Part shown: positions 606-8,004 of the stretch, one piece after another | How the letters are laid out: each line of letters starts with the position of its first letter | How positions within the stretch are numbered: position 1 is the stretch's first letter | Notes under the pieces: model-generated | What the model was told of the DNA's origin: nothing | The model's input: the letters and a program-made list of their open reading frames with translations, nothing else | Databases searched by the model: none | IMG/VR virus record: IMGVR_UViG_3300026518_000063 | Span: 1-22,327 of that record | Direction: 5' to 3' (one strand) | Source of the DNA: a virus | Length of the DNA stretch: 22,327 nucleotides | Translations under genes and position numbers: made by a program

Positions 606-1190
606 TCAATGCCTGTGAATCTCTTTTGATAATTCTTTCACCTCTTGGAGTATTTCATCATCTCTTGTTGTTATGTATCTTCTCTGAAGACGAACCAGCT
701 TCCTGATGGCTTTTTCTTTATCCACATAGCGGGTGCCGTATACCTTCTGGAGATTATCATACGCATCATTTTGAAGATCACCATCTAGATGTTTGACTCT
801 GAACTTATCATTCTTTGCTATGTCACCTTCTATGTATATTAGGGCCAGCCTATCTGCGTAGTATTGCTTACCCATAATCTTGATACGTCTCTTACCAGTG
901 CTGGAAATAGTCCCTGCTCTGTGGCCTATCATATTACTACGATTAGAGTGCATCGGCTTCTGCTTCCAGATAAATACACCAGTTTGGGGATTGTATTCCA
1001 GAAATGACCAGAGTAATTCCTGTGTGAGAATTCTTGGCCTACCTTTTGGAATGTTATTACCATTTACTGGTGGCTTATCCAAAGTTTGTGTCTGGCTTCC
1101 AACAGGTGGAAGCTTGTCCACAAGATGGATTGTATTTTCCTCCTGGTGTAAAAAGCCATCCATCATCTTTTGCATATCATTCTCATTCAT
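606..1190 (-). CDS. HNH-endonuclease-like protein
   Basis: This 194-residue protein resembles the small HNH endonucleases that are frequent in phage genomes. The N-terminal 50 residues are low complexity. Residues 57-76 (LLWSFLEYNPQTGVFIWK) match the usual NPxTGxFxWK lead-in, and residues 89-112 hold the GHRAGT...GKQYYADRL segment. Residues 132-150 (VKHLDGDLQNDAYDNLQKV) carry the HNH core, with His134 and Asn146 in the expected places. The normally conserved His of the AHRLAW motif is Asp113 here, and the D before the core His is Lys133, so cleavage activity is doubtful. A C-terminal basic helix may bind DNA. AGGAG precedes the ATG and a good promoter lies upstream. It could be a homing-type nuclease or a retired DNA-binding derivative. 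Confidence 0.75.
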   Translation of the reverse strand: MNENDMQKMMDGFLHQEENTIHLVDKLPPVGSQTQTLDKPPVNGNNIPKGRPRILTQELLWSFLEYNPQTGVFIWKQKPMHSNRSNMIGHRAGTISSTGKRRIKIMGKQYYADRLALIYIEGDIAKNDKFRVKHLDGDLQNDAYDNLQKVYGTRYVDKEKAIRKLVRLQRRYITTRDDEILQEVKELSKEIHRH

Positions 1191-1240: not shown

Positions 1241-1310
1241 GAGCTGGCTGGGATGGTGAGCTGTTAAAAAGTATGGGTGCTAGACTTCCGATTTTAGGGC
1301 TATAAAGCCT

Positions 1311-1335
1311 GTTTAGAGTCTAACCAGCAATAGGG
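1311..1335. repeat. Imperfect palindrome GTTTAGA-GT-CTAACC followed by AGCAATAGGG
   Basis: GTTTAGAGTCTAACC is an imperfect inverted repeat followed by AGCAATAGGG. Closely related sequences occur at 3541-3564, 10889-10915 and 19617-19640. Upstream, at 1300-1317, the reverse complement of the outward arm (CTAAACAGGCTTTATAG) is present, so two half-copies face away from a shared centre. Confidence 0.45.
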
Positions 1336-1395
1336 ATTCGGCCCTAATCGGTGGCAAATTTGCAATTTTGGCGCACTTTTGCACCCTCATAACAC

Positions 1396-1439
1396 TTTAG
1401 CACCCATAGGGGCCGCCTATATTGTCTATGGGTGCAAAA
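1396..1439. repeat. Inverted repeat TTTAGCACCCATAG / CTATGGGTGCAAAA
   Basis: The arms at 1396-1409 and 1426-1439 are complementary at 13 of 14 positions and separated by 16 bp. The centre-to-centre distance of about 30 bp (close to three helical turns) suits a dimeric DNA-binding protein. The same arrangement recurs at 1756-1800. A variant single site (TTTTGCACCCTCAT) lies at 1377-1390. Confidence 0.7.
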
Positions 1440-1566
1440 TCGCGGAAAATTACAAGCCCACCAAGTATTTAAACACTAAATTTGTTGATTTTCTACTTCA
1501 CCATTTATCTATATACACAAAAAATATAGGGTTATAAAGCAATGAATTAGAATAAATAGCACTTTT

Positions 1567-1707
1567 ATAATATTACTAATAATTTTTATATATTTATTAC
1601 TCACCCTATAAATTACTATTACTTCTCATAAATTACTAATATCCCACATAATTTCTAATAACCTTACATTTTTTATATATAATAATCATCTATGTAATAA
1701 TATTCTC
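1567..1707. repeat. AT-rich degenerate tandem repeat with 20-bp period
   Basis: Units beginning with ATA recur at 20-21 bp steps: 1567, 1588, 1608, 1628, 1648 and 1668. The best-matching pair is ATAAATTACTATTACTTCTC (1608-1627) and ATAAATTACTAATATCCCAC (1628-1647); the others are degenerate. The 20-bp step is about two helical turns, so any bound protein or bent A/T tract would be phased on one face of the DNA. This fits a DNA-unwinding element or iteron array, but very AT-rich sequence can look periodic by chance. Confidence 0.45.
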
Positions 1708-1755
1708 CCAAGATGTATTATATCACTACAGCATTTATCTGCATATTTTTGGCAA

Positions 1756-1800
1756 TTTAGCACCCATTATTTAGGGGAAGGGGGTGTATGGGTGCAAAAG
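1756..1800. repeat. Second inverted repeat TTTAGCACCCAT / TATGGGTGCAAAAG
   Basis: The arms are TTTAGCACCCAT (1756-1767) and TATGGGTGCAAAAG (1787-1800), with start-to-start spacing of 31 bp against 30 bp in the copy at 1396-1439. A further single copy, TTTAGCACCCATA, is at 1912-1924. Together the two pairs bracket the AT-rich core of the gene-free region. Confidence 0.7.
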
Positions 1801-2003
1801 TGCTATGAAGGTGCTTTTTCGCCCGTTTTTGGGCCTTCAGCATAGGGATTTGTCCCAAAAAACGCTTTTCAATACCCATTTCAAAGCATTAAACTCCCCT
1901 TTTTTGGCCCATTTAGCACCCATACTTATTTTACCCACACCTTTTCTTATTTCTATCCCAAACAATGCCTAAAATACCCACCAAAATTTTTATTCCAAGC
2001 ATC

Positions 2004-2313: not shown

Positions 2314-2736
2314 TCAAGCCTCCTTTATCTTAAACACAATCTTCGTACGAGTCTGCACGCGCATTTTATATTCTGGATAACACCTATCTAATGTATCTGC
2401 CTTAATTGGCACATTCAAGCAATTTAAAATTTCCATAAATCTACTGCGCCAGACCTGATTATGATGATTACCATACGGTACTAAGGCATGGGCCAACTCA
2501 TGACAGAGTGTTTCCACTATATCTTTACGGTTCCATTGCTGTAAAATCCAATTTGCCAATACCACTTTCCCGGCGTTATGTCCATCACTTCTACTATTTA
2601 CTAAATCACAGCTCCAAGCATATCCCGCCCTTGTCTGCTCTTTATAATCCACCACTAGCCGTACTCTATCCACATGTGGTATGTGCAAAAACTGTGCTTT
2701 GACAACTTCTACCATCTGCTCTAATTCTTTCTTCAA
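2314..2736 (-). CDS. SprT-like zinc metalloprotease
   Basis: This 140-residue protein carries the SprT-type zinc site: residues 79-83 are HELAH, followed by GNHHNQVW, where His92 with Trp96 fits the third zinc ligand of the HExxH...HGxxW pattern. Glu80 would be the catalytic base. The C-terminus (KMRVQTRTKIVFKIKEA) is beta-like and no Cys-based zinc ribbon is seen, so this is a minimal version. The gene starts with TTG: GGAGGCTTGAA immediately precedes it at ideal spacing, and the next gene has the same leader with ATG. The family includes SPRTN/Wss1 proteases that cut proteins crosslinked to DNA. The phage role is unproven, but removing proteins from replicating DNA is plausible. It is first in a three-gene operon that ends in a terminator. 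Confidence 0.8.
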   Translation of the reverse strand: MKKELEQMVEVVKAQFLHIPHVDRVRLVVDYKEQTRAGYAWSCDLVNSRSDGHNAGKVVLANWILQQWNRKDIVETLCHELAHALVPYGNHHNQVWRSRFMEILNCLNVPIKADTLDRCYPEYKMRVQTRTKIVFKIKEA

Positions 2737-3582: not shown

Positions 3583-3608
3583 AAGGGCACCCATTTCTGG
3601 ATGCCCTT
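3583..3608 (-). terminator. Hairpin terminator of the 140-residue gene
   Basis: On the minus strand AAGGGCATCC pairs with GGGTGCCCTT (ten pairs, one G-T) around AGAAAT and is followed by TTCTATG. It is located 36 bp after the stop at 3644. The T run is short, so termination may be partial. Confidence 0.6.
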
Positions 3609-3643: not shown

Positions 3644-4066
3644 TTAGAGTACGTCAGACAGCTTGGTTGACAGTTCAACAAAGACGTCGGGCTGTTCATC
3701 CTTACGGACACAATCCTTAGCATTCTGAACTGCTGTCTGATAATCTTCAAGGGACTCAATACCATCAAGAGTACGAGCCAGGAAGGATTCAGCAGACTCT
3801 TTCCGTCGACCACCACTGATACCACCAGCAGCATCTTCGAAATCGATCTTTTCGAGCATTTCAATCCTAGCTGCGAGTTTCTTTTCATCATCAGCGACAC
3901 CAGCACTGGAATTGTCGATGCGCAGTTTCAGACCACGTGCGAACTCACGCATAACGTAAGATGGGTTGATCTTCTTGAAGTCGATGGTCTTCACCACATC
4001 GCCAACACTAATAACAATATTGGTACCCTGAACATTAACATCTGTTGCATAGATTTTTGTTGCCAT
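3644..4066 (-). CDS. Hypothetical phage protein, strongly promoted (140 residues)
   Basis: The start at MATKIYATDVNV is chosen because GAGG precedes it by eight bases; a longer frame begins inside the promoter and is rejected. The N-terminal 45 residues (VQGTNIVISVGDVVKTIDF) read as beta strands. They are followed by SYVMREFARGLKLRIDNSSAG, a charged helix, a GGISGGRRKES turn and an acidic helical C-terminus. The middle segment resembles that of the 129-residue protein encoded at 2808-3197. It is the only gene between its promoter and a hairpin terminator, so it is expressed alone from the strongest-looking promoter in the window. Such isolation would fit an abundant small DNA-binding or host-takeover protein, but no family is recognised. 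Confidence 0.75.
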   Translation of the reverse strand: MATKIYATDVNVQGTNIVISVGDVVKTIDFKKINPSYVMREFARGLKLRIDNSSAGVADDEKKLAARIEMLEKIDFEDAAGGISGGRRKESAESFLARTLDGIESLEDYQTAVQNAKDCVRKDEQPDVFVELSTKLSDVL

Positions 4067-4151: not shown

Positions 4152-4180
4152 TTTATAATACTTTCAAGGCACGTTGTCAA
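4152..4180 (-). promoter_or_regulatory. Strong sigma70-like promoter TTGACA-N17-TATAAA (leftward)
   Basis: On the minus strand a perfect TTGACA (4175-4180) is 17 bp from TATAAA (4152-4157). The leader to the ATG at 4066 is about 80 nt and holds a small hairpin (AGCAC-ATAAC-GTGCT, 4087-4101). It faces away from the terminase promoter, with 20 bp between the two -35 boxes. Confidence 0.8.
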
Positions 4181-4229: not shown

Positions 4230-4257
4230 TTATAAAAATTATGGTAAGGAGTTATTC

Positions 4258-4707
4258 ATGGCTGATTTAGCAAAGAATTATGAATTATCAAATCAAAATG
4301 AGTTAATAGCACTCATGGTCGCTAGAGGATGTTCAGGCAAGGAAATTGCACTGGAGGCTGGATGTAGTATGACGCACATCAATACTCTAAAGAACAGTCC
4401 TCTTTTTATTATGCGAGTGAAGCAGCTTAGGGATGAATTGCTTCAAGATGGTACGTTACTAGAACTCCGTATGCAGAGGGTTGCAGAAGAATCATTGGAT
4501 TGCATTTCAGAAATTGTTACAATGCGTAACGTTGGTGATTTACAACTCATGAAACTACAGGCAGCTAACGCTCAAATGATACTTGCTAAGGCAGGCTTTG
4601 GGGAGACTTCCAATGTTAATGTGAATAGTAAAACACAAAGTATTAGTGCTATGCTTAAACCTGAAGAAATGGCAGAACTCCGTGAACGGCACGCAGCTCA
4701 GCACTAA
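4258..4707 (+). CDS. terS: Terminase small subunit
   Basis: This 149-residue protein would recognise phage DNA and load it onto the large terminase. Residues about 15-45 form a helix-turn-helix (ALMVARGCSGKEIALEAGCS followed by MTHINTLKNSP), the usual N-terminal fold of small terminases. It is followed by a helical oligomerisation region (MRVKQLRDELLQDG and on) and a short basic tail. The ATG at 4258 is chosen because AAGGAG lies six bases upstream; the longer frame from 4174 would run through the promoter. It overlaps the large-subunit gene, as is common. Position and fold make the call firm although the sequence family varies widely. Confidence 0.85.
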   Translation: MADLAKNYELSNQNELIALMVARGCSGKEIALEAGCSMTHINTLKNSPLFIMRVKQLRDELLQDGTLLELRMQRVAEESLDCISEIVTMRNVGDLQLMKLQAANAQMILAKAGFGETSNVNVNSKTQSISAMLKPEEMAELRERHAAQH

Positions 4708-6154: not shown

Positions 6155-8004
6155 ACAATAAAGAATTGGTGAACGATGCAGATATTGTTAAATTATTTCA
6201 ATCAGTAGACTTTGATCGTTCAATAGTACAATATGCAGTTAATCGTATGTTGGCTAGTGAACTTAGTATGAGTAATAATATTTCCTCATGGACTGCTGCT
6301 GAACGTCAGTATAATGCAGAACTAATCCAGAAGCCAGAAGATATTGACAGGAAAAAGAATGCCAAAGACAGTCCTATTTATGTACCGCTTAGGATTCCAT
6401 ACACCTATGCCGCTGTGCAGACATATCTTACATATTTGCTTGCCTTATTCACAAAAAGACGTCCAATGTTTCAGCTTATGGGTGCGAATCCTACACACGA
6501 AGAAACAGCAAAGATGATGGAGAATGTACTTCACAATAATGCAATCAATCGTGGTTATGTTATACAGCTACACACATGGCTTAGGGATGCTTTAATCTAT
6601 AATAGAGGTATTATCTGGCGTGATTGGTATAAGCAAATTACTAAGAAAGTACGTATCACACAACAGCAACTTAATGGCCAACCTATCGGGGAACCAATAA
6701 AAGAACTTGTGGAACAGATAGACGATGAAGGTAACGATATCTTCACGAGTAGTCCATTCGATACCTATTTTGATCCAGGCGTTACGATGCAGAAGTTTCA
6801 AGAAGGTGAATTTGTTGCTCGTGTTTATTACCAGACGTGGACTAAGGTGTTGGAATCAGTACAAAAAGGTATTTATTGGAACGTCCTTGATAGGATTCCA
6901 CTAACCAGTACTACTGCTTGGAAAAATCGTCTTAGGGGAGTACTTCCAGGAACAGAGCAAAATACTTCACAAATTGGTAACCGGCATCCAACAGTAGAAA
7001 TTATAGATATGATTGTTAGACTTGTTCCTGTAGACTGGCAATTAGGTTCCAGCATATTCCCAGAGTTTTGGCGACTTCGCATTGCTAATGGTGCAACAGT
7101 TTTAAGGGCTGAAAAACTTAATATATTTGAATTCCCTTGTTATGTAATTGAGCCAGAGTTCGATGGCAGGACACTTCATACCAAAGGTTTGATTCAGATG
7201 ATGGAACCACTGCAAGAAGTCCTATCATGGCTTATCAATAGCCACATGGATTCTGTTCGACGCACTATAAATAATAAACTAATCATTGACCCCAGTATGG
7301 TCGAATGGGATGATGTAGTAAGTAACAGACCTTATATAAGAATGTCAAAACGTGGCTATGGCCGCCAACCATCACAAACAATGCATCAACTGCAAGTGCA
7401 TGACGTTACTCAAACACATTTAAGGGATATTGAAATAGTTACAGATTTACTTACAAAAATTAGTGCAGCTACTGAAAATTTCATGGGTGTTGTAAACCAA
7501 GGAGGTAGAAAGACTGCCACTGAGGTAAGGACTTCCAATACACTTGCTGGCAGCCGAATAGAAAAAGTTGCATTGGTAATAGGCCATCAAGGGTATATTC
7601 CACTCACACGTGGTCTTGTTAATGGCATACAGGATAATTTATCTATCGGCCTTTATTATAGAGATTTTGTACAAAGTGATGGAACGAATCAAATTCAGAT
7701 TACACCAGATCAAATTAAGGATGGGCACTTCAGCTATCCTCCTGTTGATCCAACAATCCCTGTTGATCGCCAAGCCATTGCACAGACTTGGGGACAACTT
7801 ATTGGAATAGTAGGCCAGAGTCCAGCATTGGCTCAAACATATGATGTTGGTAAAATGATTAATGAATGGGCAGAACTCGGTGGTATTAAGAATCTAGATA
7901 CTTTTAGAGTCCAAGCACAGGTGGGACAAACAACACAAGGAGATGCAAATGGACAATCAGGAAGTACCATTAAGCCAAACTTTGGCAGACAGACTACTCA
8001 GTGA
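6142..8004 (+). CDS. Portal protein
   Basis: This 620-residue protein forms the ring at the capsid vertex through which DNA passes. The call rests on its place directly after the large terminase, its size and typical features: a helical N-terminal part with TYAAVQTYLTYLLALF (probable wing or clip packing), an SPFDTYFDPGV segment as in podovirus-type portals, LHTKGLIQMMEPLQEVLSWL and a MDSVRRTINNKLIIDPS stem region, then a Gln-rich C-terminus. GGAGAAGGCTC precedes the ATG, which lies inside the end of the terminase gene. The sequence family resembles portals of short-tailed phages with the SU10-type capsid, an assignment made by eye. Confidence 0.88.
   Translation: MGSVNNKELVNDADIVKLFQSVDFDRSIVQYAVNRMLASELSMSNNISSWTAAERQYNAELIQKPEDIDRKKNAKDSPIYVPLRIPYTYAAVQTYLTYLLALFTKRRPMFQLMGANPTHEETAKMMENVLHNNAINRGYVIQLHTWLRDALIYNRGIIWRDWYKQITKKVRITQQQLNGQPIGEPIKELVEQIDDEGNDIFTSSPFDTYFDPGVTMQKFQEGEFVARVYYQTWTKVLESVQKGIYWNVLDRIPLTSTTAWKNRLRGVLPGTEQNTSQIGNRHPTVEIIDMIVRLVPVDWQLGSSIFPEFWRLRIANGATVLRAEKLNIFEFPCYVIEPEFDGRTLHTKGLIQMMEPLQEVLSWLINSHMDSVRRTINNKLIIDPSMVEWDDVVSNRPYIRMSKRGYGRQPSQTMHQLQVHDVTQTHLRDIEIVTDLLTKISAATENFMGVVNQGGRKTATEVRTSNTLAGSRIEKVALVIGHQGYIPLTRGLVNGIQDNLSIGLYYRDFVQSDGTNQIQITPDQIKDGHFSYPPVDPTIPVDRQAIAQTWGQLIGIVGQSPALAQTYDVGKMINEWAELGGIKNLDTFRVQAQVGQTTQGDANGQSGSTIKPNFGRQTTQ

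Follow-up and report, generated by a model that had tools for sequence, protein, structure and literature searches.

The window, by which we mean the whole stretch of DNA analyzed here (22,327 nucleotides; record IMGVR_UViG_3300026518_000063), is a 22.3-kb IMG/VR fragment covering half of a podovirus genome of about 45 kb. Its plus strand carries terS, terL, portal, scaffold, MCP, and tail genes, and the minus strand of the left part holds small early genes (HNH, SprT-like, and others); the replication genes of the phage are absent from the fragment. Judged by MCP and portal, the annotated relatives are podoviruses of 43–45 kb, namely Caulobacter phage Kuura, Vibrio phage VS-ABTNL-3, Microcystis phage Mel-JY34, and Desulfofustis phage LS06-2018-MD01, with the PaMx41-type phages as more distant relatives. 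The small terminase of the window clusters with the relatives' genes adjoining terL, and no close relative of the window was confirmed by HNH, portal, or MCP protein. The region of interest follows the HNH gene. As originally described, it is gene-free: positions 1191–2153 wholly enclose no ORF longer than 62 amino acids. The features discussed below are the following.

606–1190, minus strand: HNH endonuclease gene (phrog_99, E 1e-18), left border of the gene-free region
1272–1280, minus strand: GCACCCATA site 1 (outer left), paired with 1916–1924
1369–1445, no strand: left arm of a long imperfect inverted repeat, identical at 45 of 77 positions to the reverse complement of 1750–1826
1400–1408, plus strand: GCACCCATA site 2, mirror partner 1787–1795
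1427–1435, minus strand: GCACCCATA site 3, mirror partner 1760–1768, 18 bp from site 2
1446–1749, no strand: AT-rich core, 82.5% AT at 1505–1705
1750–1826, no strand: right arm of the inverted repeat, collinear with 1369–1445
1760–1768, plus strand: site 4, GCACCCATT, one mismatch, mirror partner 1427–1435
1787–1795, minus strand: GCACCCATA site 5, 18 bp from site 4, mirror partner 1400–1408
1916–1924, plus strand: GCACCCATA site 6 (outer right), paired with site 1
2314–2736, minus strand: SprT-like gene (PF10263), right of the element
3644–4066, minus strand: gene of an uncharacterized family (third-iteration HMM, E 1e-14)
4252–4707, plus strand: small terminase gene (phrog_2538), where the late arm starts

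Five exact GCACCCATA copies and one with a single mismatch alternate strictly in orientation over a span of 653 bp. Dinucleotide shuffles gave 0.28 exact copies of the 9-mer per window (maximum two) and at most three copies of any 9-mer per 653 bp, compared with the five observed. The cluster seen in the original prediction is therefore real and lies beyond shuffle expectation. A weight matrix built from the six sites and run over the whole window returned these same sites as its top six matches, and the stray copies are isolated (an exact one at 6477 within the portal gene and one with one mismatch at 3587). The spacing of 30 and 31 bp given for the two close pairs has to be corrected, as both are exactly 18 bp apart (27 bp from start to start). 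All six sites form three mirror pairs (1400/1787, 1427/1760, and 1272/1916) with a common center at 1597.5–1598, and the outermost pair belongs to a 17-nt inverted pair (1266–1282/1914–1930, 94%). This symmetry, together with the longer collinear inverted arms, had been overlooked earlier. The strongest inverted repeat of the window (1381–1408/1787–1814, 28 nt, 89%) lies within these arms. The repeats indeed flank the most AT-rich DNA of the window, 1505–1705 being its highest-AT 200 bp, and the core contains a further inner inverted pair (1512–1535/1658–1681, 24 nt, 83%) with A6/T6. An AT-rich region adjoining repeated candidate protein sites, which is a feature of origins, is thus present as far as sequence features tell.

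The motif itself was not found in relatives, either by a motif-pair scan of IMG/VR, whose two matches were both unrelated, or by a distant blastn comparison of the region with phages. GCACCCATA is specific to the phage of the window, and what the relatives share is the architecture and not the sequence. We collected 80 IMG/VR loci with a portal-profile search and self-aligned them for inverted repeats with a cut-off of at least 32 bits. Between −6 and −1 kb of terL (201 kb), 25 loci had such a repeat, compared with four matches in the remaining 1.13 Mb, which corresponds to an about 35-fold enrichment per base over the rest of the contigs. Three of the four matches outside this zone fall in early-arm gaps of Kuura and of the Vibrio phage, where they surround a T8 run in the latter. 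In each of the 12 near-complete IMG/VR genomes checked, the strongest inverted repeat genome-wide sits −2.1 to −4.6 kb from terL, at the same place as the longest or only A/T run of 8 or more; this holds for Mel-JY34 and the Desulfofustis phage too, in both position and A/T run. Counted per locus, the repeat surrounds the longest or only A/T run in 22 of 24 cases, and two further genomes have a strong repeat spanning the contig end. Among the loci, L070 and L072 are one genome. The clade-wide layout is a single long imperfect inverted repeat around an A-tract, present once per genome, 2–5 kb upstream of terL.

The arms in relatives are 25–129 bp long with 70–92% identity, and they enclose cores of 62–380 bp in which A8 to A18 is typical; unlike these, the core of the window has only A6/T6 and no A-run of 8 or more. 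C-runs on the left and G-runs on the right of the A-tract are common, GACCCCC being enriched about 20-fold in the elements. The arms show periodicities of 8, 10, and 11 bp and no coding periodicity of 3 bp, and the AT content of the central 60 bp exceeds that of the genome by roughly 0.1–0.3. The element is always upstream of terS, at a distance from the terminase genes that varies between −2 and −7 kb (−7.0 kb from terL in the Vibrio phage). Several relatives have a weak repeat or none, and one (L057) has an inverted repeat without an A-run. In a broader MCP-related set, only one of nine loci with enough upstream sequence had the element, and that one had already been counted, which implies that the trait is limited to a clade. 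Among MAG contigs retrieved with the portal profile and having enough upstream sequence, two carry the element (L160 and L164), and in PaMx41-type phages (Fredfastierviridae) it is not clearly present. Chance or an assembly artefact, which could appeal only to the AT-rich composition, is refuted to near certainty by the shuffles and by the reappearance of this layout in the genomes of isolates and in independent metagenomes. The repeats of the window belong to a clade-wide element, of which we found no published description in the open-licence literature searched.

Other repeats came to light in the same survey. Kuura (L013) has a second gene-free region at 35206–35755. It contains AACACCCCCA-type sites as well as several strong inverted repeats and may be an additional control region or an alternative origin. 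In L016, eight same-strand copies of one AT-rich 9-mer at 31763–32317 form an internal repeat array inside a capsid-annotated gene. The AT-rich phage on a Clostridia MAG contig (L165) has strong inverted repeats roughly −8 kb and +7 kb from terL, one of them built on ATGATTTAATCAT, far from the usual position of the element.

Comparison of the ORFs near the element brought up a family of proteins of 140–215 amino acids, for which iterated HMM searches identified 64 members in the loci, including the gene at 3644–4066 in the window. Of 16 complete genomes, 13 carry the family, with 22 matches in total, none of them more than about 2.2 kb from the element; Kuura, the Desulfofustis phage, and G010 are without the gene. 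The position of the family gene tracks that of the element (r = 0.92, median distance 372 bp; about 2 kb in the window) and stays with it even where the element is far from terL, as in the Vibrio phage. Five genomes have one paralogue on each side of the element. The family corresponds only to phrog_28928, labelled as of unknown function, so that PHROGs offers no functional label, and Pfam gave no match. The window's own member matched neither Pfam nor PHROGs. AlphaFold2 models with pLDDT of 85 and 79, the latter for the window protein, consist of a small beta domain and a helical part. Searching solved structures with these models gave nothing convincing (best PDB E 0.57, VIA-align Z below 4), and a library of viral structures returned only unnamed proteins, probably of the same family. 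In view of these weak fold-search results, neither a known fold nor a function can be claimed for the family. From the position of its gene, we infer that it might bind DNA.

The arrangement of the genes bears on whether the element could be an operator or a centromere-like site, at which a dimeric repressor or a partition protein would bridge the arms and loop the DNA, thereby controlling early transcription or the segregation of an episome. Inverted sites around a bendable core fit such looping. P1 parS and lambda cosB are also built from inverted protein sites on either side of a bend, bridged by protein, with IHF at the bend; they resemble the phage elements in the inverted sites on both sides and differ in IHF, whose consensus was not found in the elements. 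One phage of the PaP2 type, the distantly related Shea, is maintained as an episome (PMC13348215). However, the genes flanking the element have the same direction in many genomes, including the window, where early genes lie on both sides of it, and no partition genes were identified among the window's own genes. Moreover, transcription of the family gene runs towards the element in many genomes, again including that of the window; the element is therefore not the promoter of this gene, and a simple operator becomes less likely. We consider this explanation improbable.

The long arms could also pair in a transcript and act as a structured RNA or a transcription terminator instead of a DNA site, and mismatches of the G-U type lean to one strand (74 versus 53). 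This lean is not significant (p = 0.08), however, an Rfam search gave no match, no terminator-like site was predicted in 1191–2153, and cores of 60–380 nt and A-tracts would be left unexplained, making an RNA function very improbable. A tRNA search found none, and for a compensatory-change test there were no moderately diverged close pairs covering the repeat.

Replication origins usually show the features seen here, namely a single copy, a gene-free setting, an AT-rich or A-tract core, inverted periodic sites, and a linked protein gene; long collinear arms are unusual for them. Because this combination of a dyad and an AT-rich core is conserved at a syntenic position across the clade, the best single reading of the region is a cis-acting, single-copy site of the replication-origin type, which we hold tentatively, with somewhat less than even confidence. 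In more general terms, the element is probably a place at which copying or processing of the phage DNA begins. A turning point of the GC skew, which would be a supporting sign of an origin and not a strict requirement, had been expected at the repeats; the cumulative minimum of the window lies instead at 4165, the early/late strand switch. Only about six of 16 relatives have a skew change-point near the repeat, with inconsistent sign. DnaA boxes are few in the elements, neither the linked family nor the flanking genes of the window (half of the genome) matched an initiator gene, and the surroundings of the element yielded no RepA_N protein. The origin originally proposed thus gains from the conserved syntenic architecture and loses from the GC skew, the few DnaA boxes, and the terminal repeat of Kuura discussed below.

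Known origins offer partial parallels. The iterons of RepA_N-type origins (pSK41, pTZ2162, and the PLE satellite) are arranged as inverted repeats that converge on a poly-A tract (PMC7145576), with arms of 3–13 bp versus 25–130 bp in the phage element. Herpes simplex OriS has inverted initiator boxes on both sides of an AT-rich spacer and could form a hairpin (PMC12543377); the virus and its initiator are unrelated, and the layout alone is comparable. If the element is an origin, a phage DNA-binding protein would occupy the repeated short sites in the two inverted arms, here the GCACCCATA sites, and the same protein would bridge the arms and strain the AT-rich or A-tract core. The strained core might then melt, allowing the phage replisome to load. 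The family encoded beside the site may supply this binding protein, and one end of the packaged genome may coincide with the site or be set by it.

This last possibility leads to a serious rival, because the terminal repeat of Kuura begins inside the element. The element could be a concatemer-junction (packaging) site, with the inverted repeat at the start of a direct terminal repeat helping the terminase and the replisome to nick, fold back, and duplicate the repeat. In T7, the palindrome left of the terminal repeat is thought to serve nicking, fold-back, and repeat duplication; it is a 19-bp imperfect palindrome centered 190 bp left of the repeat, which we take to be the position of the T7 hairpin end reportedly found by Chung, Nardone and Hinkle (1990). 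The T7 junction, like that of Kuura, has a dyad close to where a direct terminal repeat begins; it differs in its short palindrome and the lack of an A-tract. The 606-bp terminal repeat of Kuura, a published PhageTerm result (PMC9959647), is exact in the sequence record (1–606 = 43208–43813). Its left edge at 43208 falls between an A12 run (43143–43154) and the right arm (43219–43248), and its right edge is just upstream of terS, the gene that the element precedes throughout. In IMG/VR relatives (L018–L097), there is an excess of contig ends between the portal gene and the element relative to the opposite side of that gene (KS p = 2e-4, a weak signal), which may reflect genome ends or assembly difficulty. 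On the other hand, the ends are mapped in one relative only, Kuura, and none of five phages (T7, T3, SP6, phiKMV, and LUZ24) has a comparably long inverted repeat at the edge of its terminal repeat. The element also shifts relative to the terminase genes, with its gene family staying beside it; the cut points of circularly closed contigs are spread over many positions; and packaging leaves the A-tract and the periodic sites unexplained. We regard a packaging site as the main alternative, somewhat less likely than an origin. Separately, Kuura has a C9/G6 hairpin, GCCCCCCCCCTTGGCGGGGGGC, at 568–589, 17 bp left of the right edge of its terminal repeat.

The origin and packaging roles could coexist in one element; in phage ICP1, the pac site is proximal to a predicted rolling-circle origin (PMC7145576). 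More speculatively, and in our view unlikely, the elements might represent an undescribed widespread phage module, in which a giant poly-A-centered inverted repeat and an adjacent DNA-binding family, often with two flanking paralogues, would start replication and fix the packaged end.

In most podoviruses known solely from metagenomes, neither replication origins nor genome-end signals are mapped. A computable signature present once per genome would allow the prediction of origins or ends in an uncultured phage clade, and the linked uncharacterized family is the likely binding partner of the element. Kuura is an isolate in which the origin and packaging readings can be separated.
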